Shown: one piece after another, positions 42,559 to 60,763 of the stretch
Numbering within the stretch: position 1 is the first letter of the stretch
Layout: each line of letters starts with the position of its first letter
From: Perlucidibaca sp.
Lineage (GTDB): Bacteria; Pseudomonadota; Gammaproteobacteria; Pseudomonadales; Moraxellaceae
Direction of reading: 5' to 3'
Length of the DNA: 64,000 nucleotides
Assembly: GCA_023265995.1 (NCBI GenBank)
Contig: JAHFSA010000002.1
Coordinates: 384,814 to 448,813, forward strand
Translations under genes and position numbers: made by a program
Notes under the pieces: model-generated
Seen by the model: the letters and a program-made list of their open reading frames with translations, nothing else
Databases searched by the model: none
Told to the model about the DNA's origin: nothing

Positions 42559-42584
42559 TGATGAGTTCTCCGAGCCGGCTCAAT

Positions 42585-42755
42585 ACCAATGACCATGCGC
42601 CACCCCGGCTCCGCGGAGGTGCATGGTCAAAGGTCTTGCCAAGTCGTGAACCGCGCGCGCCATGCCGTTACGGCAAGTGTGTTGACGCGAGCCTCTTCTG
42701 AAACCCGCCTGTTGGCGGACTTGTGAACGAAGAGCGGCTACTCCCCAATGACGGG
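42585..42755 (-). ncRNA. yybP-ykoY manganese riboswitch
   Basis: Read on the minus strand, the leader holds the class's conserved pieces in order: TTGGGGAGTAGCC, GTCAACACACTTG, GGCAAGACCTTTGACC, GCCGGGGTGG and CATGGTCATTGG. The aptamer's paired elements can be drawn (GGTCAAAGG and GCAT/ATGC helices). It ends about 25 nt before the GDT1 ATG. The sequence around the ribosome site (GAGCCGGCTCGGAG) is self-complementary, so Mn2+ could act on translation start or on a terminator; no U-tract was seen, favouring translation. The aptamer family is known to sense Mn2+. Confidence 0.9.
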
Positions 42756-42758
42756 GGC

Positions 42759-45125: not shown

Positions 45126-45202
45126 GCGCCCATAGCTCAGCTGGATAGAGCACCAGGCTACGAACTTGGGGGTCGGGAGTTCGAATCTCTCTGGGCGCAC
45201 CA
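45126..45202 (+). tRNA. argT-ACG: tRNA-Arg (ACG), integration target
   Basis: 77-nt cloverleaf: acceptor GCGCCCA/TGGGCGC, D-arm AGCTCAGCTGGATAGAGC, anticodon stem CCAGG/CTTGG with loop CTACGAA (anticodon ACG, read after A34 to inosine), T-arm GGGAGTTCGAATCTCTC, discriminator A, encoded CCA. Its 3' 45 bases form part of the attL repeat; the island restores an intact tRNA here. The symbol is descriptive. Confidence 0.96.
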
Positions 45203-46102: not shown

Positions 46103-46851
46103 GCATTCGCCTTCTGAACCAAGTGCTCGACCTGCCTTTGAGGCCCGCCGAGAAATTGGCACTATCGGTTCTGGCCGACCTGGCAAACGAGGCTGGAGTC
46201 TGCTGGCCCAGTCTTGCCTATGTCGCACCCAGAGCCTCTGTGTCCATTCGAACCCTACAGCGCATCATGGGCTCGTTGGAGTCACAGGGGCTGATCCTGC
46301 GGCAACCGCGATATCGTGCCGATGGTTCTCGGACGTCATCGGAGTACATCATCCTGCCCAAAGACAACGGGGGTGACACTTTGTCACCTCCTGCTGTCCC
46401 AATTGCCACCTCCCCTACGCCAACCATGGCAGGTGGACATGACACGCCCGACACCCCTTTACCCCACAAAGAACCATCAAAAGAAAACCACCACCACACA
46501 CCCGCAGGCCTGGTCTATCCACGCAGCTTCGATGACAACCGCATCGCAGCGGCAGACCACCTGCTGGCCGGACTGCCATCGGCAGACGCTCAGTCACTGA
46601 TCGACGAGGTTGCTGGCCGCATGACCTCTGGCCGTGTCGCGTCCCCACTGTCCTATCTGCGTGCACTGATCAAGCGCCACGCTGCCGGCGAGTTCATTCC
46701 TGAAGTGGCGGATCAGATCTCAAAACAGCGCCGAGCAAAGACCGAGGAACCTCAAACAGCAACGCCAAGTCGCCGCACATCACGCGAGCACATTCAGAAG
46801 CATCTGCGTGATCTTCGCCAAGCCATCGCCAAAGGAGCCAGCCATGACTGA
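46099..46851 (+). CDS. Helix-turn-helix (replication-type) protein
   Basis: 250 residues. An N-terminal winged helix of the HTH_36 type (PAEKLALSVLADLANEAGVCWPSLAYVAPRASVSIRTLQRIMGSLESQGLILRQPRY, about 12-70) is followed by a Pro/Thr-rich linker and a basic C-terminus (ISKQRRAKTEEPQTATPSRRTSREHIQKHLRDLRQA). Such domains are found in plasmid/phage replication initiators and island regulators. The start at 46099 has GGGAGG 8 bp upstream. It overlaps the genes on both sides (4 bp and 8 bp). Confidence 0.75.
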   Translation: MSIRLLNQVLDLPLRPAEKLALSVLADLANEAGVCWPSLAYVAPRASVSIRTLQRIMGSLESQGLILRQPRYRADGSRTSSEYIILPKDNGGDTLSPPAVPIATSPTPTMAGGHDTPDTPLPHKEPSKENHHHTPAGLVYPRSFDDNRIAAADHLLAGLPSADAQSLIDEVAGRMTSGRVASPLSYLRALIKRHAAGEFIPEVADQISKQRRAKTEEPQTATPSRRTSREHIQKHLRDLRQAIAKGASHD

Positions 46852-48556
46852 CCCTATCAGCACAAAGTTCAATCTCTTGTTGGTCAAGATCATCAATCAA
46901 CTGCTGACATGGCAATACGAGTTCTATGTCTGGTGGGGGCTGATCGGAGGAACCGTTTTCGTCCTGGCCTGGCTGCTGCGTAAATACAGCATCGGCGCAG
47001 CCATATTGCCTTTCGGACTCCTGGCTATCACGCCACCGATACTGCTGCTCCTGTTCCTGCCAACGTTGTCTTGGGAGTTAGGACAAGTCCGGCTGTCGCT
47101 ACCAAAAGCGCATACCTACTGGTTGGCCGGAGGGCTGGCACTTCCCATCTGCTTGGCCTTTCTGATCGCACGCTATGGCGGCGAGTACTGGTCCAACCTG
47201 CTTGGTGGGCTAACGCGCTCATACTCACACGAGCGCTCTCGCCGTACGGACATTCGGCATGTGGCCACAGAGTTGCCACAGGCACGAGCACGCGCCTATC
47301 ACCCCAGGCAGTTCTTCAGAGAGGGCACCATGTTTCTCGGGCTGGACCCGGATGGCAAGCATGTACGCATTCCCAGATCACAATGGCTCAAGTCCCATAT
47401 CCAGATCATGGGCACCACCGGCTCGGGGAAAGGTGTCGCTGCAGGCATGCTGCTGAGTCAGGCCGTATGGGGGGGCGAAACGGTAATCGTCATCGATCCC
47501 AAAAACGACGAGTATCTGCCCCATGTCATGCAGCAGTCAGCCGCGGATCGTAATGCTGGCTATGTCTATGTTGACCTAGGTGCGGATTGCGCACAGTGGA
47601 ATCCATTCGCAGGCAAAACCGCGCAGGAGTGCGAGGAACTGATCACCGCCGGCTTCGGCATGGCAGAGAAAGGCACCGATGCTGATTTCTACCGAGTCGA
47701 GGATCGCCGCGTGGCCAGGCGCTTTGCCGCATTCATCGCTGCTAGCCCTGGCCCATTGCAGGATCAATTCACTGCCTTCTTCCGGCAACATCCCGAGCTG
47801 ATTGATGACTGCAAAAAGCTCTATGCCGACTTGGAAGAACTGGCTATCACCCCAGCCGCGCAAGCGGAGGTCGGCATCGATATCGCCAGATTGATCCAGA
47901 GCGGCAGCGTCATCTATGTGCGCGGCAGCACACGCAACCCCAGGCTGCTTAAGTTGCAACGCATCTTCCTGCTGTCATGCATGCAGTGGCTGGAGAGCCG
48001 AGATCGCGAAACTGCACGCCATACCGTAATTTTCATGGACGAATTCAAGTATGTCTTGTCCCGCCCAGCTCTGGAGGCGCTTGGCGCGATCCGCGACAAA
48101 CGTGCGCATGTCATGCTGGCACACCAGTCTCTGGGGGACTTGAAAGATTGCGGCGGAGATCTCAACCCGGCAGCGGTCATCGGCGGAGTGATCGAGAACT
48201 GCGCAATCCGCCTCAGCTACCGCGTGCAAGACCCAGAAACAGCGAAATGGCTATCCGATGCCAGCGGCAAAATCCTCATTGATGACGAAACACGCGTCGT
48301 TGAGCGCAACTCCGGACTGACCGAAGTCGCGCAAGGACAGCGCGTGCTACGCCAGGCCGAACGGCCGCTAGTCGACACCAACCAGCTATTCATGCTGCCT
48401 GAGCGGTGTGCCGTACTTTTCGGCGCAGGTCCTGCCCGCTTCGTTTTCACGGCTCCCATCCCCGTCCAGAAAACAGCACTGGCGACCTCTGTTACCTTCA
48501 AGGAGCGGCCGAGCACTTCTGTCCAGCTAACCGAGGGACTGATTGATGTTGATTAG
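46844..48556 (+). CDS. VirD4/TraD-like coupling ATPase
   Basis: 570 residues. Three N-terminal membrane helices (about 22-45, 50-72, 92-112) precede a RecA-like motor domain with Walker A IMGTTGSGKGVAAGMLLSQ (about 183-201), VIDPKNDEYLPHVM, and Walker B HTVIFMDEFKYVLSRPAL. This layout is that of type IV secretion coupling proteins, which deliver the relaxase-DNA complex to the mating pore. AAGGAG lies 6 bp before the ATG. It overlaps its neighbours by 8 and 11 bp. With no pore genes present, it may dock on a helper element's system. Confidence 0.87.
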   Translation: MTDPISTKFNLLLVKIINQLLTWQYEFYVWWGLIGGTVFVLAWLLRKYSIGAAILPFGLLAITPPILLLLFLPTLSWELGQVRLSLPKAHTYWLAGGLALPICLAFLIARYGGEYWSNLLGGLTRSYSHERSRRTDIRHVATELPQARARAYHPRQFFREGTMFLGLDPDGKHVRIPRSQWLKSHIQIMGTTGSGKGVAAGMLLSQAVWGGETVIVIDPKNDEYLPHVMQQSAADRNAGYVYVDLGADCAQWNPFAGKTAQECEELITAGFGMAEKGTDADFYRVEDRRVARRFAAFIAASPGPLQDQFTAFFRQHPELIDDCKKLYADLEELAITPAAQAEVGIDIARLIQSGSVIYVRGSTRNPRLLKLQRIFLLSCMQWLESRDRETARHTVIFMDEFKYVLSRPALEALGAIRDKRAHVMLAHQSLGDLKDCGGDLNPAAVIGGVIENCAIRLSYRVQDPETAKWLSDASGKILIDDETRVVERNSGLTEVAQGQRVLRQAERPLVDTNQLFMLPERCAVLFGAGPARFVFTAPIPVQKTALATSVTFKERPSTSVQLTEGLIDVD

Positions 48557-49262
48557 CTCTTATGATGACCGCATGGCACGGCAGGCCACGCGCCATGCGC
48601 GCGTGCTGCACTTTCTGCGCGACGAAACATGGACAGCTGCTCACGTGATCAGAGAGCTGCTAAAAGGCTCGCCGGCCTTGGTCTCCAAGACCATGCAGCA
48701 GCTCAAGAAGCTCGGGCATGTGACAGAGCATCGCGCCGAGGGATGCCGAAGCACGCTGTGGGGCATTACGACGCACGGCCTGGCGCACGCCTGGGATGCT
48801 GACGAAGCCATGGCTATCCGTTCGTACTTCGAGCCATCGCGGCTCTCGGCACTGGCGATCCCGCATCGACTGGATGTTCAGCGGGCTCGCCTGCGTGCTG
48901 AGGATGCTGGCTGGTCAGATTGGCGTCCAGAGATCATCCTCCCGGCAGGCATGGCGAAACGCCCGGATGCGTTAGTGGTCGATCCGAATGGGCAAGTAAT
49001 TGCCGTCGAGCTGGAGCGGCACATCAAAACGCTCAAGCGGTACGAGGCTGTCTTTGCAGCCTATCTGCAAGCGATCAAGCGCGGGGAGCTGGAGTATGTG
49101 CACTACGTGACACCGGATGCGGACCTAGCTACTCGACTAGCTCGCGTTCTGAGCCTGGTGCAGGCTGTCCCCTTGCTGGGCGAGCGCGTGCCGATTTCTG
49201 ATCGGCACCGCTCCCGCTTCCTGGTCATGGCGTTACCTGACTGGCCGCCACTCTGCACATAG
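48546..49262 (+). CDS. Replication-relaxation (Replic_Relax) family protein
   Basis: 238 residues. An N-terminal winged helix (ARVLHFLRDETWTAAHVIRELLKGSPALVSKTMQQLKKLGHV) is followed by a C-terminal nuclease-like fold with RPDALVVDPNGQVIAVELERHIKTLKRYEAVFAAYLQ, matching the Replic_Relax pattern (PD...E-x-E/H). Family members accompany mobilization genes on plasmids and ICEs and are thought to act as, or with, relaxases. ATG 48546 is used; ATG 48573 is an alternative. It overlaps the coupling-protein gene by 11 bp and is the last gene before the structured region. Confidence 0.75.
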   Translation: MLISSYDDRMARQATRHARVLHFLRDETWTAAHVIRELLKGSPALVSKTMQQLKKLGHVTEHRAEGCRSTLWGITTHGLAHAWDADEAMAIRSYFEPSRLSALAIPHRLDVQRARLRAEDAGWSDWRPEIILPAGMAKRPDALVVDPNGQVIAVELERHIKTLKRYEAVFAAYLQAIKRGELEYVHYVTPDADLATRLARVLSLVQAVPLLGERVPISDRHRSRFLVMALPDWPPLCT

Positions 49263-49283
49263 GTACGCGAAATCGGAAACCCA

Positions 49284-49928
49284 GATGGGATTTGCACCTC
49301 TCCCATCCTGATATCCCATCTCGCTCCACCATCAGAAGCCAGACTCGGCTGCGGCTGCAGCCTCCTCTGAGGAGCCGTCCTCTCAATGGTTACGTGGCTG
49401 AACGCCGCGAAACCATTGATTCACCTCACACGGCCAGTCTGGACGCCTGACTCGCTTGGAGGGCAAGCCCTCTTGTGACCTCCAGTCGCTGGACGCTCCC
49501 TCCGGCCTCAATTCACCCTGCCGGCGTCGGCGCTGGCGCGCGACTCCCGGCTTCACCGGCTGCGCTGCGGCCCCTGTTGGGCACTGCAGCTTGGTCGCGC
49601 TTGTGCACGCCGCGTCAAGACGCTCGCGTCTCGACCTGTCCCGTACCGGACAGTTCTCGCCTTGAGCTTTTCCGCCCAGGAAGACGGGAGTCGCGCGCCT
49701 GCTAGTGCAGGCACTCGACGCCGGCAGGCCGGACACGAGAACAGGCCGCTGGGGCGGCCCGTCCTCTTGCCGCGTCTGGGGACGCGGCATTCCGTCCTTG
49801 GTTGCCCGTCTGGACGACGGACAATCCCGTGATCGCTGTCGCATCACGGGACGCGAACGATTGCGGCTGGCGTGGGCGCCAGCCTTCATCTGTCTGGCCG
49901 TGGGCGGCCAGACTCGCGCCATGTGGCG
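49284..49928. other. Structured non-coding region: TGGG-loop hairpin array
   Basis: Fills the gene-free gap 49263-50064. At least twelve short perfect hairpins were found by eye. Four have the loop TGGG: 49744-49759 (GGCCGC stem), 49768-49789 (TGCCGCGTC stem), 49865-49884 (GGCTGGCG stem) and 49892-49913 (GTCTGGCCG stem). Others: 49384-49418 (CAATGGTT/AACCATTG), 49459-49472 (GAGGGC/GCCCTC), 49618-49631 (AGACGC/GCGTCT), 49806-49820 (CCGTC/GACGG, loop TGGAC), 49826-49850 (CCCGTGAT/ATCACGGG). Two long-range stems pair 49517-49529 with 49716-49728 (13 bp) and 49535-49549 with 49685-49699 (15 bp). Open frames here are low-complexity and unconvincing. It may be a large structured RNA, an oriT or a single-strand origin. 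The AT-rich stretch 49950-50064 is probably the promoter of the next gene. Confidence 0.75.
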
Positions 49929-50064
49929 GTGGGCGTCCTCATGGAGAGCATTGCATATATGAATTTTAGTTTGAATGGTGCATATTTCATGTCTGGCATT
50001 GACGCGTAAAGTCAGACTTCATTCTGATGCAAAAAAGCAGTAAAGTTTCCGGCGAGAGAAGATT

Positions 50065-52164
50065 ATGACCCTTGATATAAGAGGCGGCCTTAAAAACACA
50101 TTAATCAGCTCCAATAAATATGTCTTCATAGAGGAGCTGCTGTCAAACGCCGTTGACTCTTATTTGATACGCAGGAACTCGGACCCAGGCGCTCCAACGC
50201 TGTCAATTTCGATATCTATTGATTTTTTCAATACCGAACTTCTGCAGGGAGATACATATGATGTTGAGATTTCCTGCACAGATAATGGATACGGTTTTGG
50301 CCCCGATCAAATAAGGGCCTTTGTTACAAAGGACTCAACCTATAAGGATTATTTGGATATCCAAGGGATTGGAAAGTGCAAGGGCGCTGGAAGAGTCCAG
50401 TACTTCCATTTTTTTAGGAAATTAAACATCGAAAGCATCGTCAACAATGCCAATATACGCAATAAGATTAAGCTGGATATTCCAGAAGGAGCGCGCGAGA
50501 TATCAGAAGATAGCTTCGTGGCGGTCAACCATCCAGATGGTGATGCCTCTACCAGAGTAAGACTGGTTGGGTTGACAGAAAAGGCATATACACAGCATTT
50601 TGACGCACGATCGCTTAAAGTAGATCTTTCAGCAAGACGCGTCAGAGACTATTTGTATGTCGCATTCATGCAGAAATTTATTGTTCTGAAAAATATATTA
50701 GGCGATTTTCAGGTCTCTGTAAGTGAAACTGGTGGCGACAACGAAGGCACTGAGTACATTCGGGCAGAAGACCTCCCTGAGCCTGTCAGCATAGAAAGCC
50801 TTCCGATTATTTGCTCTCATGGGAAAAATACGAGCAATAAACAACTCAGAGTTACGAGATACTCATTACCGGAAAGCCGCCTGTCAGACTCGCAGCATGA
50901 GGTTGCGCTCTGTGCTAACGCAGCCTTAGTTTACTCTCTAACAAAGTATTTTTTGAAAAACCCAAGAGATAGGTCAAGGCCATTGGATGGGGCATTCAAT
51001 TTACTACTTGTGGAAAGTGATTTCCTTGAAGACAGGGTAAATGAGCAGCGAGACGGGTTCAATATCCCGAAGGAATGCACATCAACGGACGATATCGATG
51101 GAGAAATCTCTCTTTACGATATAGTTGACTCTCTAGAAGATTATGTTTTTGGGATATTGACTCCGAGGGACTTTGACAGGGATGCACTCATTAGCTCGAC
51201 AGAAGAGCAGTTTGGCATATCGCGCTACATGTTAAATCAGGTAAACATCAAGGTTCGCTACAGTGACACGGAAGAGAATATCGCAAAAAGAGTTCTCAGA
51301 AAATATCAAGATGAGATTGTCAAAGAGACGTGGGATATATACTCCATGAAGCAGGATCTTTTACAGTTGGATCCGCGCAGTAGCGACTTTAGAGACAAGG
51401 TATCTGAGATATCATGGAAATATACGTCAACGATTAGAAAAATGGATATGGCGAACTTGTCTCAACTTATTGTTAGGCGCTCATCCATGCTTGAGGTTTT
51501 GAAGCGCGCAGTTGAGATGACGCTAACCTGCCAAGCCAACGGATCTGGAAGAAATGAAAATGAAAAAATTCTACACAACGTTTTCTTTCCGATGGGCACG
51601 GATAGCACAGAAAATGCAGATCATGATATCTGGATATTAAACGAAGAATATCATTATTTTGAATACATATCTTCAGATAAGTCCTTGGCATCCATCCCAT
51701 GGAGAGATGAAGATAAAATATTCTCTCCTGATATTGATGCGAGCCTTGAAGAGCTCTTCAAAAAGAACAACGCAGAGCATCGACTCAAAAGGCCAGATAT
51801 TGCAATATTTAATCAAGAAGGTGCCGCAATAATCATAGAGTTTAAGGCGCCTGGAGTTGCACTGCAGGACCATATACCAGATATTGTTCAATATGCACGA
51901 TTGTTGGCAGCAAAATCTGGCGGAAAGATAAAGAAATTTTATGGCTACTTAATTGGTGACTGCCTCGATGAGACTAGGCTGCCACCGGAGTTTGAACGAT
52001 TTCCTAGCGGCTTGGGCTACTTCAATACCTCCAGAGTAAAGGATCTTTCCTCTGGAGCACAGTATGGTGAGCTGTACACGGAGGTACTTTTCTATAGCCA
52101 GTTTATTGATCGCGCAGAAAAAAGACTAAAAATATACAAAGAGAAAATAAATCTACCAATTTAG
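50065..52164 (+). CDS. GHKL ATPase fused to a C-terminal PD-(D/E)xK-like nuclease
   Basis: 699 residues, about 40 % GC, far below its surroundings. N-terminal GHKL ATPase: N-box IEELLSNAVDSYL (about 20-32), G1 CTDNGYGFGPDQI (about 71-83), G2 GIGKCKGAGRVQY (about 108-120). The middle has no recognised domain. The C-terminal part (about 580-660) reads HRLKRPDIAIFNQEGAAIII followed by EFKAPG, the D...ExK pattern of restriction-like nucleases. GHKL-plus-nuclease proteins (MutL/MORC/Hsp90-like) are known from restriction and defence islands. Phage defence is inferred from this layout and from the SIR2-HerA and methyltransferase neighbours. The gene is transcribed alone, after the hairpin array. 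Confidence 0.8.
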   Translation: MTLDIRGGLKNTLISSNKYVFIEELLSNAVDSYLIRRNSDPGAPTLSISISIDFFNTELLQGDTYDVEISCTDNGYGFGPDQIRAFVTKDSTYKDYLDIQGIGKCKGAGRVQYFHFFRKLNIESIVNNANIRNKIKLDIPEGAREISEDSFVAVNHPDGDASTRVRLVGLTEKAYTQHFDARSLKVDLSARRVRDYLYVAFMQKFIVLKNILGDFQVSVSETGGDNEGTEYIRAEDLPEPVSIESLPIICSHGKNTSNKQLRVTRYSLPESRLSDSQHEVALCANAALVYSLTKYFLKNPRDRSRPLDGAFNLLLVESDFLEDRVNEQRDGFNIPKECTSTDDIDGEISLYDIVDSLEDYVFGILTPRDFDRDALISSTEEQFGISRYMLNQVNIKVRYSDTEENIAKRVLRKYQDEIVKETWDIYSMKQDLLQLDPRSSDFRDKVSEISWKYTSTIRKMDMANLSQLIVRRSSMLEVLKRAVEMTLTCQANGSGRNENEKILHNVFFPMGTDSTENADHDIWILNEEYHYFEYISSDKSLASIPWRDEDKIFSPDIDASLEELFKKNNAEHRLKRPDIAIFNQEGAAIIIEFKAPGVALQDHIPDIVQYARLLAAKSGGKIKKFYGYLIGDCLDETRLPPEFERFPSGLGYFNTSRVKDLSSGAQYGELYTEVLFYSQFIDRAEKRLKIYKEKINLPI

Positions 52165-52289
52165 TATGCTGGCGGAGGCACCGCTCATCTACGAAGATCT
52201 TGCAGTCTTGAGCTGCTATGCTTCGGGTTAGAGCACAGCCAGAGCAAGACGCCAAGCGGCACTGCCAGCGACAATGAGGTGCGAGCTGG

Positions 52290-53270
52290 ATGATTGAGCA
52301 GAGTAACGGCATGAGTGAGATCCTCATCTATCAGAGCGGGGACCAACCCGTTGAGGTGCGCCTACAAGGTGATACCGTATGGCTGCGCCAAGATCAGATG
52401 GCAGCGCTGTTTGGGCGCGACCGTACCGTTATTGGCCGTCACATCCGCAATGTGTTCTCCGACGACGAACTACCTCTGGAAAGCAATGTGCAGAATTTGC
52501 ACATTGCCCACTCCGACAAGCCTATTGGGCTCTACAGTCTGGATGTCATCATCTCCGTTGGCTATCGGGTCAAGTCCGCTGAGGGTGTGCGCTTTCGTCA
52601 GTGGGCCACGAAGTTGCTGCGTGAACACCTGACTCGCGGCTACACCGTGAACCGTCAACGATTTGAAGCAAATGCCCGCGAACTGGAGGCTGCGCTGACA
52701 CTTGTGCGCCGTCTGGCGGCTGATCCGGCGCTAAATGCCGACACCGGTCGTGGCTTGGCTGATATTGTGAGCCGCTACGCACAGACCTTTTTGCTCCTGC
52801 AACGATACGACGAAGGATTGCTGACCGAGCCCACTACGCAGCTCGGTGGCCTACTACCTACACCAACGGAGGCACGCGCTGCGCTGGCCATTCTCAAGTC
52901 CAACTTGATCGCACGTGGAGAGGCCACCGATTTGTTTGCTCGCGAACGCGGCGACGGACTTGCCGCCTTACTTGGCAACTTGGACCAGACTGCATTTGGC
53001 GAGCCGGTGTATCCAAGCATCGAAGCCAAGGCGGCACACCTGCTGTATTTCGTGATCAAAAACCACCCCTTCGCGGATGGCAACAAGCGTAGTGGTGCCT
53101 ACCTGTTTGTGGACTTCCTGCATCGCAATGGCCGACTACTGGATACCAACGGACAGCCCGTGATCAATGACATCGGACTGGCTGCACTGGCATTGCTGGT
53201 GGCCGAGTCGGACCCAGCTCAGAAAGATACGTTGATTCGGCTGATCATGAACATGCTAGCGGGCACATAA
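52290..53270 (+). CDS. RhuM-Fic/Doc fusion protein
   Basis: 326 residues. The N-terminal RhuM (virulence-protein) domain, about 8-130, starts EILIYQSGDQPVEVRLQGDTVWLRQDQMAALFGRDRTVIGRHIRNVF and includes ISVGYRVKSAEGVRFRQWATKLLREH. A helical linker follows, then a C-terminal Fic/Doc domain with HPFADGNKRSGAYLFVDFLHR (about 252-272), the HPFx(D/E)GNKR active site of the Doc/kinase-like branch. Doc-type proteins phosphorylate EF-Tu; Fic proteins AMPylate targets. No Phd-like antitoxin is adjacent, so RhuM may regulate it in cis. The ATG at 52290 has GAGGTG upstream; 52311 is an alternative. It is followed 47 bp later by the methyltransferase gene. Confidence 0.85.
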   Translation: MIEQSNGMSEILIYQSGDQPVEVRLQGDTVWLRQDQMAALFGRDRTVIGRHIRNVFSDDELPLESNVQNLHIAHSDKPIGLYSLDVIISVGYRVKSAEGVRFRQWATKLLREHLTRGYTVNRQRFEANARELEAALTLVRRLAADPALNADTGRGLADIVSRYAQTFLLLQRYDEGLLTEPTTQLGGLLPTPTEARAALAILKSNLIARGEATDLFARERGDGLAALLGNLDQTAFGEPVYPSIEAKAAHLLYFVIKNHPFADGNKRSGAYLFVDFLHRNGRLLDTNGQPVINDIGLAALALLVAESDPAQKDTLIRLIMNMLAGT

Positions 53271-53317: not shown

Positions 53318-56233
53318 ATGAATTGCAGGATGCAAACCCATATGACCGCTGCACGTAAAGCCCTTCTCCAAGAGTTTGTCCAATGGTGCGCTAAGCACAT
53401 CAATGGCGATGAGAAAGGTGAGGCTCAAATTTTCCTTGACCAGCTTTTCAGAGCCTTTGGCCATCCGGGCTTCAAAGAGGCCGGCGCCACATGCGAGATG
53501 CGGGTAAAGAAGGCAGGCAAGGGCACCAGTTTTGCTGACCTGGTATGGAAGCCCATGGTGTTGGTTGAGATGAAAAAGCGCGGAGAAGACCTCTCTAAGC
53601 ACTACTCACAAGCCTTCACGTACTGGACACGCCTAGTCCCTAATCGCCCACAGTATGTGGTGTTGTGCAACTTCGATGAATTCTGGATTTACGACTTCAA
53701 CAGTCAGATGGACAGTCCCGTCGATAAGGTGCACCTCCATGAATTGCCCGAGCGCTTCGGTCCTCTGGCGTTCCTATTTGCTGAGGCCTCTGCCCCCGTC
53801 TTCGGCAACCATCAGGAAAGTGTCACGCGGCAAGCCGCCGACCAACTGGTCCTATTGTTCCGCGCTCTGATCGCGCGCAAAGTTGACCGTGAGACGGCCC
53901 AGCGCTTCACACTCCAAACACTCATGGCTCTGTTTGCCGAAGACATCGGCTTGCTTGAAAAATATTTCTTCACTCGACTTCTGGATGATTGCAGCACCCC
54001 AACGCTGGCCTATGACCTGATCGGACAGCTATTCGTAGAAATGAATACTCCGGGCAAGACTCCCGGCGGGCGCTTCAAGGGAGTTCCCTACTTCAATGGT
54101 GGCTTGTTTGCCAATCCAGCTCGCATCGAGCTCACTGAGGAAGAAATCGAACTGCTCCGAGAGGCTGCCAAGTTCGATTGGTCGAAGGTCCGGCCAGAAA
54201 TCTTCGGTGCCATTTTTGAACACAGCATGGACGCTAACGAGCGGCACGCATACGGTGCCCACTACACCAGCCCAGTCGACATCATGAAAGTGGTCGGCCC
54301 GACTATTGTCGAGCCATGGCAACAGCGCATAGATAGCGCAAAAACGCTCAAAGAGCTGGAGCACTTGCTTATGCGTATCGAGAACTTTCGAGTTCTCGAT
54401 CCGGCGTGCGGATCAGGAAACTTCCTATATATCGCCTATCGAGAGCTCAAGCGCCTAGAGGCGCAAATCTATGAGCGCATGGGCGAGTACAAAAGCATCG
54501 ATGCATCACAGAGGCCTATGGGCTTTGTTACCGCTCGCAATTTCTTCGGTATGGACATCAATCCATTTGCTGTCGAACTAGCCAAAGTGACGATGATGCT
54601 GGCTCACAAGCTGGCCATCGACGAGCTACATGTTCAAGAGCAGGCGTTGCCGCTGGACAATCTCGACTCCAACTTCAACATTGGAGATGCTCTTATACGT
54701 GACGATGGCAGCCGTACTTCTTGGCCTAATGTTGATGTCATCATTGGTAATCCACCATTTCTTGGTGCCAAGCTACTCAAACCAAATTATGGGGCGGACT
54801 ACGTTAAGCGTCTGCGCAAAGCCTATCCTGAGGTTCCAGGAATGGCTGACTTCTGCGTCTACTGGCTCCGTCGTGCCGAGGTGCATTTACCTGAATGCAC
54901 TGCAAATGACTGGTTCGCTGGTCGGGCTGGCTTGGTCGGCACACAGAACATACGCAACAACGCCAGCCGCATAGGTGGGCTGGATGCTATCTGTGCTAGT
55001 GGGACAGTGATCGAGGCCGTAGATAGTCAACCTTGGTCCGGCGAGGCTAATGTACACGTATCTATCGCTAACTGGGTCAAGACCCAAAACACAGCCCTAC
55101 TTCCAAAAAGCTGTCGACTGTGGTTCAAGGTCGAGCATACTGCCACGGGGCGTAGAGCCCGCGGCAGCGGCCAGGCTAGCAAAGATTACGAATTAGATAT
55201 GCGTGAGGTCGCGCATATCAATGCCTCACTTTCAGACAAGGTCGACGTGGGTGGCGCCCTCGTTTTAGCGTGCAACACAACACCACAAATCACCTTCCAA
55301 GGCATCACCCCTGGTCATGCCGCATTCGTTCTGTCCGAATCACATAAGCAGTTGTTCCCCACCAAGGAGCAGTCTCTAATTTCCCCTTATCTTGTAGGCG
55401 ATGAGGTACTCAGCGGTACGACGGAGCGCCGCTATCTGCTCAACTTAGGGCAGCGCAATGTGCTGGAAGCGCAGGGGTTTCCTCACACGTTCACACATGT
55501 GAAAGAGCACGTGCTTCCCGCCCGCAAGAAGGCGGCAGAAGAGGGACGGGACCAAGATGGCAACATGCGTCCACATCACCGTCGCTTTCTTGAGCGCTGG
55601 TGGCAGCTTTCTTGGGGGCGCGCCGAATTGTTAACTGAGCTCGCTAAGGTGCCACGTTATCTTGCTTGCTCACGTGTCACTAAGCGCCCAATCTTTACTT
55701 TTGTCGACACGATGATCCATCCAGGCGATGCGCTGCAGGTCTTCGCTTTGGCTGATGACTACAGCTTTGGCATCCTCCAGTCAGCTGCTCATTACCAATG
55801 GTTCCATGCCAAGTGCTCCAACATGAAGTCAGACCCGCGCTACACTTCGGAGTCGGTATTCGACACCTTCCCTTGGCCGCAAGGCGTCAGCCCTGCCCAA
55901 GTCGATGCAGTGGCTAAAGCCGGGCGCCAACTCCGCCAAATTCGCGATCAAGCCTTACAGCACCTAGAAGGAGGCTTGCGCGCGCTCTATCGCACTCTTG
56001 ATCTGCCTGGAAAGAATCCATTGAAGGATGCGCATGACAACCTAGATACTGCAGTAGTTAAAGCTTTTGGCTTCAGCCCTATGCAGGATCTCCTTGAAGA
56101 ACTGCTTAAGTTAAATCAGAGAGTAGCAGCACAGGTTATAGAGGGGGCATCGGTTAATGGCCCCGGAGTGCCCAACACCTATCCTGATCCATTAAAGCTA
56201 ATCACAAGAGACTCATTTGGCACCCAAGGCTAG
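53318..56233 (+). CDS. Single-polypeptide restriction-modification enzyme (MmeI-like, type IIL/IIG)
   Basis: 971 residues, within the MmeI-family size range. The N-terminal nuclease-like segment is TSFADLVWKPMVLVEMKKRGEDLSKH (D...ExK, about 68-93). A helical connector follows, then a gamma-class adenine methyltransferase core with SAM motif FRVLDPACGSGNFLYIAYREL (about 361-381) and catalytic NPPF in VIIGNPPFLGAKLL (about 484-497). A C-terminal target-recognition region has the family's SDPRYTSESVFDTFPWP. No separate REase, MTase or specificity gene is nearby. ATGs at 53330 and 53342 are plausible later starts. It converges with herA, leaving a 64-bp gap. BREX PglX-like identity was considered; the N-terminal nuclease argues against it. 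Confidence 0.85.
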   Translation: MNCRMQTHMTAARKALLQEFVQWCAKHINGDEKGEAQIFLDQLFRAFGHPGFKEAGATCEMRVKKAGKGTSFADLVWKPMVLVEMKKRGEDLSKHYSQAFTYWTRLVPNRPQYVVLCNFDEFWIYDFNSQMDSPVDKVHLHELPERFGPLAFLFAEASAPVFGNHQESVTRQAADQLVLLFRALIARKVDRETAQRFTLQTLMALFAEDIGLLEKYFFTRLLDDCSTPTLAYDLIGQLFVEMNTPGKTPGGRFKGVPYFNGGLFANPARIELTEEEIELLREAAKFDWSKVRPEIFGAIFEHSMDANERHAYGAHYTSPVDIMKVVGPTIVEPWQQRIDSAKTLKELEHLLMRIENFRVLDPACGSGNFLYIAYRELKRLEAQIYERMGEYKSIDASQRPMGFVTARNFFGMDINPFAVELAKVTMMLAHKLAIDELHVQEQALPLDNLDSNFNIGDALIRDDGSRTSWPNVDVIIGNPPFLGAKLLKPNYGADYVKRLRKAYPEVPGMADFCVYWLRRAEVHLPECTANDWFAGRAGLVGTQNIRNNASRIGGLDAICASGTVIEAVDSQPWSGEANVHVSIANWVKTQNTALLPKSCRLWFKVEHTATGRRARGSGQASKDYELDMREVAHINASLSDKVDVGGALVLACNTTPQITFQGITPGHAAFVLSESHKQLFPTKEQSLISPYLVGDEVLSGTTERRYLLNLGQRNVLEAQGFPHTFTHVKEHVLPARKKAAEEGRDQDGNMRPHHRRFLERWWQLSWGRAELLTELAKVPRYLACSRVTKRPIFTFVDTMIHPGDALQVFALADDYSFGILQSAAHYQWFHAKCSNMKSDPRYTSESVFDTFPWPQGVSPAQVDAVAKAGRQLRQIRDQALQHLEGGLRALYRTLDLPGKNPLKDAHDNLDTAVVKAFGFSPMQDLLEELLKLNQRVAAQVIEGASVNGPGVPNTYPDPLKLITRDSFGTQG

Positions 56234-56297: not shown

Positions 56298-58070
56298 TCA
56301 TTGTGGTGTTTGGACTCTTTGCTTACGCCAACTCTCTACTGCCGCATCATGGCCGCCAACTGCAGTATCTAGAGCCCAACGATCCCAAAAATCGATGGTT
56401 CCACTGTTCGGCGGCTGATTCGGGGGAGACATGCGAATACGCGCAGGCAGCAAACTGGCATCGCCTACGACGAGAGCCTCTCCCGTATCGAGAACTGGAA
56501 GTAACTCACCAAAACCACCAAGGCTATCAGGTAGTAGGCGACGCACTACAGCCTGATCGTCACCATTAGTAAGACGCATTGCCATCAGGTTGTTGCACTG
56601 ACTCAGAACAGTCCGATTAACTTCAGATGGTCTCTGGCTAACGACAACCAAACCTAATCCGTATTTTCTCCCTTCCTTCGCGATACGCTCGAAAATTGCG
56701 ACTGAGATATCGCCTGCTCCAGACGCACCACTCCGCTCAGGAATGTATAGATGCGCCTCATCACACACGATAGATATCGGATGGCGCCTCTCTATTGGAG
56801 TCCACTGCTGGACAGAAAAAATTAGGCGCGCAACTAGGCTCACCATCAACGGCAAGACATCTGAAGGAACCTCAGAGAAATCAATTACCTTGACGCCACC
56901 TCTTTGGGCCGGCTGATCCTTTCGCCCTGCCATCAAACGCACAACCAAGCGCTCGAGCCAGTCATACTGCATCGTTTCCGCTACTCCCTGGAAAAGGAAG
57001 CCAAGTCTTCGATCAGACTGCTTGCTCTCAAGACGCTGTATGAGACGACTGAGCTTGCCATTGAATTCACCTTGCTTTTCTGCACCTGCACGCGCACCCG
57101 GAACCATTTGCTCATTTAGCTCATTCAACTCGCCAAGCACAGTTTCAAGATCGAAAGGCACGGGGCTATCGATGGTGAAGTTCGCTAGCACGTCAGACTT
57201 ACCGTCTGCTTCCAAGTAGATACGCTTTGCGTTGAGGATTGCACGTGACATAACCATCGCTTGGTTCGGTGCATTCTGATCAGATCGGTCAACGAACATA
57301 GAGGTCAAAGCCTCGTAACCGAGTAGCCAGTACGGCAGGAAAAGCACTCCTTGGTCTAGCGTGGCTCCGGAGTCGAGGTCCGCCGGACCTGCAATCCGCA
57401 AATGCTGGAAACCATCGCCGTTAAGCGGGGCGTACTCCCCATGAATATCCAGCATGACAGCATTTGCATTGGGAAGTTCGGCGACCTGTTCAAGCACACG
57501 AGCGGTTGTCCAAGACTTACCCGACCCGGTACTACCTACAATAATTGCGTGACGCTGGAAAAAGCGGTTGCCGTTGAGATAAGCGCCCGCAGCTTCATCA
57601 AGCGTGTAATGCCCCAGAGAAAGTCGTTGTCCGTCTCCAGCAATGTTCGCAACTACGCGCATGAATGCCGTCAAACGGAGCCCCTCGAGGGCAAAACAAT
57701 TGGCATCGATCTCAGGAACGGTCTCGAGCGTTCTTACGAACACATTCTCTTTCAGTCCAATACGATCAATCAGAGTACCGATCAATGCTATGCGTACAAC
57801 GTTGATTTCATCATCAGGATCGTCGTCATCAACACCTTCCGCTACCACTGCCCTGTCTGCGCGCGCCCCCCCACTCGAGGCGCTTCGTGTAATCCTCTGA
57901 ATAATGCCGATCAAGTGTTGACCTGGCCGACTACTCTGCAGCGCAGCTAACCGATTTACTTGCAACTTCCGAAGCCGGGTAACGTCTTCGACAGCCACAG
58001 TCACATTTGCAGTATCTACTGCACGCACACGCCCGAGGGCTTCATTATCTTGGTAATCGAGAATAGGCAT
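56298..58070 (-). CDS. herA: HerA family ATPase (Nezha defence system subunit)
   Basis: 590 residues. N-terminal HAS-barrel (MPILDYQDNEALGRVRAVDT onward) precedes a hexameric FtsK/HerA motor: Walker A IIVGSTGSGKSWTTARVLEQ (about 176-195), Walker B ISIVCDEAHLYIPERSG, and a C-terminal VVSQRPSEVNRTVLSQCNNLMAMRL sensor/Arg-finger region. It starts 9 bp after the SIR2 stop on the same strand. SIR2-HerA pairs form a large supramolecular defence complex in which HerA stimulates or moderates SIR2 NAD+ hydrolysis or nuclease activity. Its pairing with SIR2 here is by synteny. Confidence 0.9.
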   Translation of the reverse strand: MPILDYQDNEALGRVRAVDTANVTVAVEDVTRLRKLQVNRLAALQSSRPGQHLIGIIQRITRSASSGGARADRAVVAEGVDDDDPDDEINVVRIALIGTLIDRIGLKENVFVRTLETVPEIDANCFALEGLRLTAFMRVVANIAGDGQRLSLGHYTLDEAAGAYLNGNRFFQRHAIIVGSTGSGKSWTTARVLEQVAELPNANAVMLDIHGEYAPLNGDGFQHLRIAGPADLDSGATLDQGVLFLPYWLLGYEALTSMFVDRSDQNAPNQAMVMSRAILNAKRIYLEADGKSDVLANFTIDSPVPFDLETVLGELNELNEQMVPGARAGAEKQGEFNGKLSRLIQRLESKQSDRRLGFLFQGVAETMQYDWLERLVVRLMAGRKDQPAQRGGVKVIDFSEVPSDVLPLMVSLVARLIFSVQQWTPIERRHPISIVCDEAHLYIPERSGASGAGDISVAIFERIAKEGRKYGLGLVVVSQRPSEVNRTVLSQCNNLMAMRLTNGDDQAVVRRLLPDSLGGFGELLPVLDTGEALVVGDASLLPARIRMSPPNQPPNSGTIDFWDRWALDTAVGGHDAAVESWRKQRVQTPQ

Positions 58071-58079
58071 GAGAGGCTC

Positions 58080-59135
58080 TTATGTCGTGTGATTCAGAAA
58101 TTCGTTCAACTGCCAAAGTGGTCCGCTCGAAATTTCCACTCCATCAGGCACCTCGTTTGCGAAAACTCTAATACCAACTGAGCTTTCTTCCAGCGCTAAG
58201 TAACGAGCACAGCGACCACCGTCGAAAATTTGACGGGTGGTTGGACTAATTTCCTTCGTGATTAAAACCAATGGAACATCAGCATGAGCGCACCGCTCAG
58301 TAAGCAATGGCTGCAGATGTGGGTCATTGAATCCAAATCCAACACAAAGAAATCCGGTTGAGTTCCTCACAGCCTCATCAGCGCTATGCATTGCACTGCG
58401 AAATGGCTCGTCGTGCGTCCTGCGATACTTCTCAATTCCTGGCGTAACAATCGCCGGAGTCATACCCGGCGGAGGCTCCGCCATTGGTGGTAATGACACG
58501 ACACTGCCAAATGCATCGGCAAACCAACCAAAAGAGCCGTGAACCTTCCAGACATTAACCGTCCTCACCTGTCGCTGCCCGATGTACACGCGGGCAGGCG
58601 GATCTCCTACTCGAGCCCCTAGGAGGCCATAGCCAAATCCAGTGTAGGCGCAGAAGCCCGCAGCTTCAGCGGCGTACTCTGCAATCCGGTCGTAGTTAGG
58701 CGTTACAACATTTACAGTTGTGGCTGTACTGCGAAACAAGTGTGTAAAGAGACGCGAGAGAGGGAGGCACCGACGGTCCGCTACAACACGCTGGAAGACG
58801 GTGATATCTGCTGAATTAAGAAAGCGCCAAGTCGTATCTACGATATGTGATAAGACTGGCTGCGTGACTTGTATCTCAGACAGAGCAGACTCTAGATCTC
58901 GGGTACGTATCCGCTCAAGGAACTGCAGCCAAGCCTGCTGGTCAGCATCGCGCTGACATGTCAAAGGTAACGCTGACGCGGACAGATGATTGCCGAGAGG
59001 CCCCATGCCAGGAATCCCGACTGGTACAGATGCACCGCTTCCCAAAATGACAGTAGGGGCCTGCCGTAGGCAGGCTTGGGCAAGCTCGATAACTTGTTTG
59101 ATATCCATCTGCTTTTTACGATCCTTCGTTGTCAT
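58080..59135 (-). CDS. SIR2 family NAD+-hydrolysing effector (Nezha system)
   Basis: 351 residues. The sirtuin-like fold is visible: TVILGSGASVPVGIPGMGPLGN (about 29-50, NAD-binding), TTVNVVTPNYDRIAEYAAEAAG (the TxNYD motif), catalytic His in VNVWKVHGSFGWF (about residue 213) and VGFGFNDPHLQPLL. This is the defence-type SIR2, which degrades NAD+ upon phage infection, rather than a deacetylase (no zinc Cys tetrad). It is first in a SIR2-herA operon, 102 bp downstream of the integrase on the same strand. ATG 59108 is an alternative start. Confidence 0.88.
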   Translation of the reverse strand: MTTKDRKKQMDIKQVIELAQACLRQAPTVILGSGASVPVGIPGMGPLGNHLSASALPLTCQRDADQQAWLQFLERIRTRDLESALSEIQVTQPVLSHIVDTTWRFLNSADITVFQRVVADRRCLPLSRLFTHLFRSTATTVNVVTPNYDRIAEYAAEAAGFCAYTGFGYGLLGARVGDPPARVYIGQRQVRTVNVWKVHGSFGWFADAFGSVVSLPPMAEPPPGMTPAIVTPGIEKYRRTHDEPFRSAMHSADEAVRNSTGFLCVGFGFNDPHLQPLLTERCAHADVPLVLITKEISPTTRQIFDGGRCARYLALEESSVGIRVFANEVPDGVEISSGPLWQLNEFLNHTT

Positions 59136-59237: not shown

Positions 59238-60602
59238 CTATCCTTGGCGGCCATACGACATCCATATCTTTTGCAAACTCCCCCCCACCAGCTCCCAGGC
59301 CTCTTTCTGCTCCGCCTGCGTCGACTGCCGTTGGTATATCCGCTGCATCTTGTTGGGGTCCACATGGTTTAAGCACTTCTCGATAATGTGCGGCGCCACT
59401 CCCAGATGCCCCATCAGCGTGGCGCAGCTCCGGCGCAGGTCATGAGCCGTCCAGCGACCACCGGGGAGCATGAGCGCATCCGTCTGCTTGCTGCGATTCT
59501 TCATAGGCTCGGCGTTCTCACCCAATTGCCTATCTCGTAGCTGCTTGCTGAGGAACTTCGGGCACAGACTGGCCCAGGGTGCATCTGGGTTTGATCGCCG
59601 GCTAGGCAGAATGAAGGGCGCCTCAGGCTCCTCTAGCCTCAGTACCTGCATCTGTTGCTTAGCAAAGTCCGACAAGAAAACCGCGTGTGCCACCCGGTTC
59701 TTGGTGTTGCCTGCGGGCAGAAACAAGCGGCCCTTATCTAAGTCCACATGCTCCCAGCGAGTCGCCGAAATCTCCCCCACACGACAACCCGTGGCCAGCA
59801 ATAACCAGATCGTCGCCTCCGATGACTTAGACACCCCTGATACTGGAAGCTTAGCCGCGAGCATCTTGATCTCGTCCTCATCCAGAAAGCGATCACGCTC
59901 CGTCTTCTTGCCCCAGGTATCCCGTTTCAGCCCGAAGGTCGGATCAATCAATATGTACTCGCGCAGCAGGGCATAGTTGAACATCTGGCGAATGTCACCC
60001 AGCATGTTCCGCGTCATGACTGACACACCGCGCTGTTTAACCTTGTCGAGGATCTTGATGACATCAGGTCGGCGAATCTCTTCGGCGTAACGTTCGCCAA
60101 TGACAGGCAGCACGTCCTTGGTGAATGTTCGGCGCACTTCCTGACCACCATCGCTACGTCGCTTCACTTCGGCAGTGACCCACTCCTCGTATAGAGTGTT
60201 GACCGTCATCCTGCGCCGGAGTCTTTCGGCTGCCTCGCGCTGCGCAGCCTCTTCGGCCTCTCGGCGTGCTCGGTCCATCCTGGGGTCTATGCACTGAGCG
60301 ATGAGTTCGCGGGCACGGTCTGCCTCGGTGCGTGCGGTCTTGAGCGATATGTCGCGATAGCTGCCTAACCCCAGCTTGCAGCGTTTGCCCCCGAAGGTGT
60401 ATTTGAATAGCCAGTCCTTCTCACTCGCCGGGCGCACCCTGAGGAACAGCCCGCTGCCATCCCCCAGTAGATACTCCTGAGTCTTCGGCTCGGCACGATT
60501 GATCTCCAGCTGCGTCAGGATGTACTTGCTCAATACCGTCTCCAGGGGACCACTCAGGGGACCACTTTTGCTGCGCTTGGATGGCACGCAGTGAGACATC
60601 AT
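59238..60602 (-). CDS. P4-type tyrosine integrase
   Basis: 454 residues. An N-terminal DUF4102-like arm-binding domain (LFLRVRPASEKDWLFKYTFGGKRCKLGLGSYRDISLKTAR), a core-binding SAM-like domain (about 135-235), and a catalytic domain with Arg in LLLATGCRVGEISATRWEH, Lys in GNTKNRVAH, HxxR in AHDLRRSCATLMGHLG, His in CLNHV and Tyr in QRIYQRQ. All six catalytic positions are present, so it looks active. It is transcribed inward from attR (60717-60763), as usual for tRNA-targeting islands. The first residues overlap the GGGGACCA repeats. Confidence 0.93.
   Translation of the reverse strand: MMSHCVPSKRSKSGPLSGPLETVLSKYILTQLEINRAEPKTQEYLLGDGSGLFLRVRPASEKDWLFKYTFGGKRCKLGLGSYRDISLKTARTEADRARELIAQCIDPRMDRARREAEEAAQREAAERLRRRMTVNTLYEEWVTAEVKRRSDGGQEVRRTFTKDVLPVIGERYAEEIRRPDVIKILDKVKQRGVSVMTRNMLGDIRQMFNYALLREYILIDPTFGLKRDTWGKKTERDRFLDEDEIKMLAAKLPVSGVSKSSEATIWLLLATGCRVGEISATRWEHVDLDKGRLFLPAGNTKNRVAHAVFLSDFAKQQMQVLRLEEPEAPFILPSRRSNPDAPWASLCPKFLSKQLRDRQLGENAEPMKNRSKQTDALMLPGGRWTAHDLRRSCATLMGHLGVAPHIIEKCLNHVDPNKMQRIYQRQSTQAEQKEAWELVGGSLQKIWMSYGRQG
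60545..60564 (+). other. Candidate integrase arm-type sites, right end
   Basis: GGGGACCA at 60545-60552 and 60557-60564, 12 bp apart, identical to the pair at 45261-45280 in sequence, spacing and orientation. Here they fall inside the integrase 5' coding region (SGPLSGPL), which may link integrase binding to its own expression. Confidence 0.5.
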
Positions 60603-60716: not shown

Positions 60717-60763
60717 CTACGAACTTGGGGGTCGGGAGTTCGAATCTCTCTGGGCGCACCATA
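60717..60763 (+). repeat. attR: 47-bp direct repeat (tRNA-Arg 3' fragment)
   Basis: Exact 47-bp copy of 45158-45204: the 3' part of tRNA-Arg from the anticodon loop through the CCA plus two bases. No 5' tRNA half precedes it, so it is not a functional tRNA. It marks the right boundary of the island. Confidence 0.95.

Follow-up and report, generated by a model that had tools for sequence, protein, structure and literature searches.

A structured segment of about 600 nt that follows the mobC gene in the window (i.e., the whole stretch of 64,000 nucleotides of Perlucidibaca sp. DNA analysed here) is a conserved component of MOBC mobilization modules, carried in this case by a MobB/MobC island in a tRNA-Arg gene. 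The following properties were established by computation: (i) its presence; (ii) its fold; (iii) the covariation of its 5' core; (iv) the recurrence of its loops; (v) its strand polarity; and (vi) its linkage to MobB and MobC. As for its function, the element may be an overlooked RNA, or a folded DNA strand, that aids the movement of mobile elements.

The genes and repeats that surround the segment are as follows:

45178-45202, plus strand: attL-like 25-nt direct repeat AGTTCGAATCTCTCTGGGCGCACCA, the 3' end of tRNA-Arg(acg); exact repeat at 45178 and 60737
46808-48556, plus strand: MobB-like type IV coupling protein (Pfam TrwB_AAD_bind and T4SS-DNA_transf)
48543-49262, plus strand: putative MobC (MOBC) relaxase, the gene called Replic_Relax in the sequence-only reading (NCBIfam MobC_subf, 220.1 bits, cut-off 200)
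59238-60602, minus strand: tyrosine integrase beside attR (Pfam Phage_integrase, 70.1 bits)
60737-60761, plus strand: attR-like 25-nt direct repeat, exact copy of AGTTCGAATCTCTCTGGGCGCACCA

Since the repeats lie at 45178 and 60737, the latter next to the integrase, the island would measure about 15.6 kb. With an integrase, att direct repeats at a tRNA-Arg gene and its own MobB-like and MobC genes, it looks like an island of the integrative mobilizable type, in agreement with what had been proposed for it from the sequence alone. No mating-pore gene was found among the 10 island ORFs scanned with Pfam, and most of the other island genes look like defence cargo.

To judge from its profile match and from plasmid searches, the product of the Replic_Relax gene is MobC, i.e., the relaxase of CloDF13-type (MOBC) systems. 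Residues P141, D142, E156, E158, K162, R166 and Y167 are invariant across 11 aligned MobC-type proteins (PD...ExE...K) and are probably the catalytic residues of a PD-(D/E)XK-type enzyme. An AlphaFold model of modest quality (pLDDT 66.7, built from 2 sequences) is closest to PD-(D/E)XK nucleases, the Foldseek top matches including EndoMS, VRR_NUC, BamHI and EcoO109I, but all of them are weak (best E 6.6e-3). Among plasmid records, 1,217 match the window MobC and 1377 the window MobB-like protein, and this coupling protein matches coupling proteins that are encoded beside MobC genes. The local coupling-protein and relaxase neighbours had been noted before, but the tie to the MOBC relaxase family at large had been missed.

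The most conspicuous part of the segment is a hairpin array at 49744-49913, which is described here with reference to L002, the closest relative:

49744-49759, minus strand: CCCA-loop hairpin (TGGG on the plus strand), 6 bp; two-sided changes relative to L002
49768-49789, minus strand: CCCA-loop hairpin (TGGG on the plus strand), 9 bp; two-sided changes relative to L002
49806-49820, minus strand: GTCCA-loop hairpin (TGGAC on the plus strand), 5 bp, CCGTC-TGGAC-GACGG; two-sided change relative to L002
49826-49850, minus strand: 8-bp stem CCCGTGAT / 9-nt loop / ATCACGGG; by eye, another complementary stem in L002
49865-49884, minus strand: CCCA-loop hairpin (TGGG on the plus strand), 8 bp; a 2-nt insertion alters the L002 copy
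49892-49913, minus strand: CCCA-loop hairpin (TGGG on the plus strand), 9 bp; L002 has the same stem with loop CCTA

All six hairpins that had been claimed are found where they were placed: four with TGGG loops (6, 9, 8 and 9 bp), one with TGGAC and the 8-bp stem with a 9-nt loop. However, they had been read on the plus strand; since the minus strand is the folding strand (see below), the loop reads CCCA. Counting perfect hairpins with a stem of at least 6 and a loop of 4, none of 10,000 dinucleotide shuffles of 49744-49913 gave two or more with the same loop, against four observed, and 9,273 of them gave no such hairpin.

The further claim that structure and loop are under selection holds as well, in that stems covary while loops stay. 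In the window/L002 alignment the stems are rewritten on both sides and the loop is kept; at the place of the 49826-49850 stem, L002 has, by eye in the alignment, another complementary stem instead of CCCGTGAT/ATCACGGG. Uncompensated stems and variable loops had been named as what would speak against the claim: homologues have mostly compensated stems and kept loops, but L002 shows one CCTA loop and one altered hairpin. RNAalifold yields two-sided changes in 22 of 197 pairs of a structure chosen by RNAalifold itself. The window/L002 alignment also contains 1- and 2-nt indels, which argue against the other condition then named, a conserved protein frame through the element.

The array is real over its 170 bp but turns out to be only one end of a larger structure. 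Against 20 shuffles per strand, the fold of the gap 49263-49960 scores a z of -11.7 for the minus strand and -8.4 for the plus, and this, together with the long-range helices, extends the structure to about 600 nt. Its parts are:

49283-49321, no strand assigned: inverted repeat AGATGGGAT / ATCCCATCT between the MobC gene and the element, from a repeat search; candidate oriT-type repeat
about 49325-49920 (ends approximate), minus strand: whole structured element, from fold z, G004 copy, G439 homologue and strand test
49383-49419, minus strand: 3' hairpin with GUUCA loop, from the inverted-repeat list and the sequence
49454-49518, minus strand: 3' domain, i.e., GGGTGAATT, a stem with GCGTCCAGCG apex and AAGAGGG-CTTG-CCCTC; pattern also in G238
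49517-49529, minus strand: long-range helix, outer, arm 1; pairs with 49716-49728 (13/13)
49532-49554, minus strand: long-range helix, inner, arm 1; pairs with 49680-49702 (91%)
49680-49702, minus strand: long-range helix, inner, arm 2; pairs with 49532-49554
49716-49728, minus strand: long-range helix, outer, arm 2; pairs with 49517-49529
49716-49811, minus strand: counterpart of the family 5' core (two CCCA hairpins and one junction), from a weak match to model R1
49963-49990, minus strand: promoter-like site ATGAAA-16-TAAAAT (9/12), just upstream of the element; 1 found, 0.2 expected, a score that does not count as evidence of function

Read along the minus strand, the predicted order is the CCCA-hairpin array, a junction, a long-range helix, a single-stranded GGGUGAAU and a second array with GUYCA loops. 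Of the two mid-element helices, the one of 23 nt (91%) encloses 125 nt and the one of 13 nt (100%) encloses 186 nt. Rfam at gathering scores found nothing in the element, either in the window or at 12 further loci, and only riboswitch, tRNA and RNAI elsewhere. Relaxed-threshold Rfam candidates within the element (best E 0.66) all lay below the gathering scores and were rejected.

In G004, of the same genus, there is a copy of the element 80% identical, with MobB and MobC nearby and other genes intervening; in G439 (locus L012), of another family, a diverged copy lies right after mobC (nhmmer E 4.6e-12), and a related repeat, GATGGGATA, stands at the place equivalent to window 49283-49321. The near genomes gave 2 matches in 97, one being the window's own genome, and blastn with the window element found nothing among plasmids (72,556 records) or phages (50,697 records). 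In viral contigs, a 16-base pattern retrieved 105 stretches with no homologue among them by nhmmer, the longer 3'-domain pattern was absent and the MobC search was also empty; in genome contigs with MobB, two peptide patterns matched 54 stretches, among which just the known relative was found.

The wider family is defined by its linkage to MOBC genes. Among 30 distinct loci with MobB and/or MobC matches, CloDF13 included, the element was recognised in 24, that is: (i) 14 by the covariance model described below, 4 of them being its seeds; (ii) 3 by nhmmer or as its seeds (the window, L011 and L012); and (iii) 7 by eye, from loops and motifs (L133, L134, L142, L143, L153, L154 and L157). It was not recognisable in L138-L141, L144 and L146; within this group L139, L144 and L146 have a weak MobC match and no MobB found, and L144 and L146 were checked by hairpin scan and R1 only. 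Duplicates were counted once (L136 = L130; L145 = L157), and L161-L163, L169 and L170, which came from the model itself, stand outside the 30 loci. As cut, the gaps beside mobB at the further MobB/MobC loci measure 600 to 1,600 nt and, in plasmid records, are nearly devoid of annotated genes (that of L152 holds one short hypothetical gene).

On one strand of 23 elements, CCCA accounts for 29 of the 64 loops of perfect hairpins with stem of at least 6 and loop of 4, and GTCCA/GTTCA for 17 of the 64 loops of hairpins with stem of at least 5 and loop of 5, against 0 of 262 and 0 of 706, respectively, in the rest of those loci (278 kb, both strands); these counts are not independent events, since element orientation was partly set by these very loops and some elements are closely related. 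L148, where R1 finds the element and the hairpin scan is empty, was left out of the count.

CloDF13 (NC_002119) has the same architecture upstream of its MobB match, which shows 28-30% identity; its MobC was not detected with the queries used. In the window, by contrast, the element follows mobC instead of preceding mobB, and it is on the strand opposite to that of the mob genes. When 478 bases of the CloDF13 copy were searched against 72,556 plasmid records, 839 matched, 824 with a coverage of at least 80%; the 12 matches listed have no annotated feature beneath them. One conjugative-type copy matches 246 of 5,426 complete E. coli genomes (79 over at least 80%); beneath the 8 matches listed there is only the neighbouring H-NS-family gene.

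The sequence-only reading had suggested a covariance model built from homologous gaps. R1, a model of the 5' core (three-way junction and two CCCA hairpins), has seeds from four loci; a MAFFT alignment of mixed groups had misplaced the hairpins and given a poor RNAalifold fold, and the model was rebuilt from one clean group. It finds 10 of the 20 non-seed element loci, all ten of conjugative type, at E values of 7.7e-10 to 1.5e-4, these ten having been inspected already when the core was chosen. Over 32 sources (432 kb) there is nothing below E 0.2 beyond the ten loci, the seeds and one seed duplicate; at this threshold the window, CloDF13 and 8 further elements are missed. The pairs covary. 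In an alignment fitted to the model (18 cores: the 4 seeds, the ten loci found by R1 and G238, G357, G923 and G988), 20 of 23 core pairs change on both sides, with pairing in 97.4% of 387 cells. Covariation scores 0.815 here, compared with 0.167 when shuffled and at most 0.136 with partners slid. The slid controls and the consistency of the two-sided changes speak against the model-fitted alignment being the whole reason for this covariation.

Run on whole genomes, R1 matched 3 times in a set of 369 (E<=0.01) and 2 times in a set of 398 (E<=0.001), with some overlap between the sets. In G988 the match lies beside MobB and MobC. In G238 its neighbours are a MobB-like gene (tblastn E values as low as 2e-36) and a MobC-like one that scores 39.8 bits against NCBIfam MobC_subf, where the cut-off is 200. 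In G357 and G923 it adjoins proteins in which winged-helix and PD/ExE-like features can be made out by eye; hhalign against MobC gave weak results for both (probability 35% and 11%, E 0.0004 and 0.0029, respectively). The high MobC-profile score of the L162 protein was left uncounted, because the profile alignment includes that protein and the score arises by construction. A further match, in G353 (L163, E 0.0028), was rejected by eye as not element-like.

Filters off, the best R1 match within 49200-50060 (861 bases) is minus 49716-49811, weak at 11.7 bits and E 0.012, and it puts the CCCA hairpins at 49744-49789 in the model's two hairpin places. The suggested model covaries and finds half of the non-seed loci, but matches the window only weakly. 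The 3'-domain pattern GGGTGAATT ... GCGTYCAGCG ... AAGAGGG, written from the window and G439, occurs among 369 genomes in the window genome, in G439 and, as an independent match, in G238; the reversed pattern occurs in none of the 369. G238 carries both an R1 core and a window-type 3' domain; the two are on one strand, with the 3' domain some 80 nt further downstream. It is chiefly by the 3' domain, together with the loops and the position that they have in common, that the window would be assigned to the R1 family.

As to which strand folds, helix-internal mismatches on the YYCA strand of 19 elements comprise 43 G.U and 15 A.C, against 100 and 128 in shuffles (Fisher p 5.6e-5). The underlying folds were made with G.U forbidden and are hence neutral between strands, mostly with one element per near-identical group; two such helix-internal wobble tests both show the strand difference, their element sets overlapping. 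The z of the YYCA strand is the more negative in 12 of 13 elements, with L131 as the exception and L134 nearly equal. A noisy comparison of homologue pairs over whole gaps showed no strand difference (G.U 606, A.C 620). Wobble enrichment on one strand means that a single strand folds, either as RNA or as transferred DNA; on balance, one single strand (minus in the window) is kept foldable. The structured RNA and the folded single-strand transfer DNA put forward earlier are still the two live readings, whereas the plain binding array for a loop-reading protein, proposed alongside them, leaves the three-way junction and the long-range helix unexplained.

The reading that we favour, and to which we would give about an even chance, is that of a mobilization-module RNA that serves MobC, a non-covalent relaxase, and is recognised through its repeated identical loops. 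The element would be transcribed from the minus strand; a single partner, most likely the MobC/MobB relaxosome, would dock at its repeated YYCA loops; and the RNA would then assist a non-covalent PD-(D/E)XK relaxase in loading on the nicked DNA, holding it or rejoining it. The model for this role is SGI1, whose sgm-sRNA is required for transfer (PMC9299015). There, sgm-sRNA is likewise encoded beside oriT and mobilization genes, and the element that carries it is integrative and mobilizable, with a relaxase that is atypical and non-HUH (PMC9299015). Nevertheless, (i) MpsA/MpsB of SGI1 are of the tyrosine recombinase kind, not MobC; (ii) the functional core is shorter (1,295-1,572 bp of mobSGI1); and (iii) sgm-sRNA is a transcribed RNA (PMC9299015), while the window element is a putative one.

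The size and complexity of the element, the SGI1 precedent and the promoter-like sites may all be counted for the RNA. Such sites lie upstream on the folding strand in 2 of the 5 loci scanned (window, 1 against 0.2 expected; L011, 3 against 0.6) and were found in none of the other 3. A terminator scan found none in the window; terminator-like ends follow the 3' array in L134 (U8) and L142 (U7) by a loose scan that lists many other sites, and neither is listed by the dedicated scan tool. OLE, GOLLD and ROOL are large ornate bacterial RNAs, which the element resembles in size and complexity; it differs from them in having no Rfam match of that kind in the window or the 12 further loci.

In pMET1, described as 'oriT-mobB-mobC', the putative oriT precedes mobB, an arrangement shared with CloDF13, and nic is within an inverted repeat (PMC2262945). 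The conjugative-type sequences examined have inverted or direct repeats between the element and mobB, and the window has its repeat at 49283-49321 between the element and mobC; taken with pMET1, these repeats suggest that nic probably lies within the neighbouring inverted repeat, i.e., beside the element and not inside it. In L147, L149-L152, L154, L155 and L157 the repeats of this interval before mobB are short, some direct and some inverted, and their unit mostly differs from one element to another; they are possibly binding sites of the relaxase or of a partner.

The strongest alternative, serious albeit on the doubtful side, is that the YYCA strand goes to the recipient and its hairpins form in single-stranded transferred DNA, where they would be loading sites for the relaxosome or coupling protein, start sites for the second strand, or single-strand promoters in the recipient. 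The strict Watson-Crick covariation and the few G.U pairs fit such DNA: in the 18-core alignment G.U makes up 8 of the 377 standard pairs of the conserved short stems, and in 61 hairpins there are 490 Watson-Crick pairs as against 6 G.U and 26 mismatches of other types, which is fewer G.U pairs than expected of RNA. One-strand polarity suits a transferred strand as well as an RNA, and the 3 of 5 scanned loci without a promoter-like site also point this way. Against folded DNA we count that the oriTs known to us are much shorter than about 600 nt. In its favour, again, the element stands at the oriT end of MOBC modules, as the 'oriT-mobB-mobC' order of pMET1 indicates (PMC2262945).

Far less probable is a duplex binding array or a set of cruciforms, in which a protein binds inverted repeats in double-stranded DNA at oriT and single-strand folding is incidental. 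The inverted repeats do share a constant centre, the mismatch types of the short stems are near random, and the noisy whole-gap comparison shows no strand difference; however, strand-specific wobble enrichment, the more negative z of the YYCA strand in 12 of 13 elements, and a three-way junction with helices over 125-186 nt are not expected of duplex recognition. The least probable is a structured RNA that acts otherwise in these elements: as an antisense or copy-control RNA, in immunity between elements, or as a leader regulating mobB/mobC. Conjugative-type plasmids do have the YYCA strand just upstream of mobB in the same direction, but side and orientation vary: in the window it converges with mobC, and in CloDF13 and a small Klebsiella plasmid it diverges from mobB. 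The element is found both in an integrated island and on plasmids of different replicon types, and only mobB/mobC are constant beside it in the feature tables examined.

TraX of the Gram-positive plasmid pAD1 is a MOBC relaxase related to restriction enzymes, for which a covalent intermediate has not been observed, and the bind site of the pAD1 oriT consists of five direct repeats away from nic (PMC12857230). A 2025 review regards it as an open question, for the MOBC prototype TraX, by what means the recruitment, transfer and rejoining of DNA proceed when no covalent intermediate is formed (PMC12857230). The window shares with pAD1 a MOBC relaxase. If true, an RNA partner would answer how a non-covalently bound relaxase guides and rejoins the transferred strand. 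The broader proposition, that MOBC modules throughout Gammaproteobacteria encode a large RNA which partners a restriction-enzyme-like relaxase via repeated loops and so explains the non-covalent guiding and rejoining of the strand, is put forward tentatively, as something we would sooner doubt than believe.

MOBC modules are common on sequenced plasmids; the mobile-element family itself is little understood. The CloDF13-type region has been called oriT in the literature, and a conserved single-strand fold is not described there, as far as the available sections of the two papers go (PMC2262945; PMC12857230). No paper on a conserved fold at MOBC loci was found among the openly accessible papers searched. 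A conserved fold absent from Rfam makes the TraX-type question of recruitment and rejoining testable in CloDF13-derived plasmids, and it would provide a marker for MOBC transfer regions missed by protein searches.

Some minor observations concern variants of the element and neighbouring genes. The conjugative-type loci L131, L151, L152, L155 and L156 have an extra repeated apex, e.g., TTCAATTTCGAAGAAATTGTTAA, upstream of the CCCA core, the Vibrio form of which is TTCAATCCC..GGATTGTTAA. Compared with 7 of the 8 E. coli genome matches listed (two pieces each), the copy at L132 3480-4078 seems to lack about 110 bp, and part of its central helix seems to be missing. At L012 3536-4081 (G439), the MobB match upstream of mobC covers the C-terminal part only, and an integrase-like fragment is seen nearby by eye; L012 is perhaps a decaying island that still bears the element. 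At L011 1105-2688 (G004), a reverse transcriptase (RVT_1, 56.3 bits) lies beside the element, possibly as antiviral RT cargo. In the window, a large protein with weak HATPase and HSDR_N matches (50065-53270) comes directly after the element, with a RhuM/Fic protein next. The island also holds an MmeI-type restriction-methylation protein (53318-56233), and an MmeI-type gene adjoins the element in G357 too (within L161 4845-8225). At 56298-59135 a HerA-type ATPase (DUF87) adjoins a SIR2_2 protein (Pfam), a gene pair that we take to resemble the SIR2-HerA defence pair. Finally, a manganese (yybP-ykoY) riboswitch is found at window 42563-42758 on the minus strand (88 bits).
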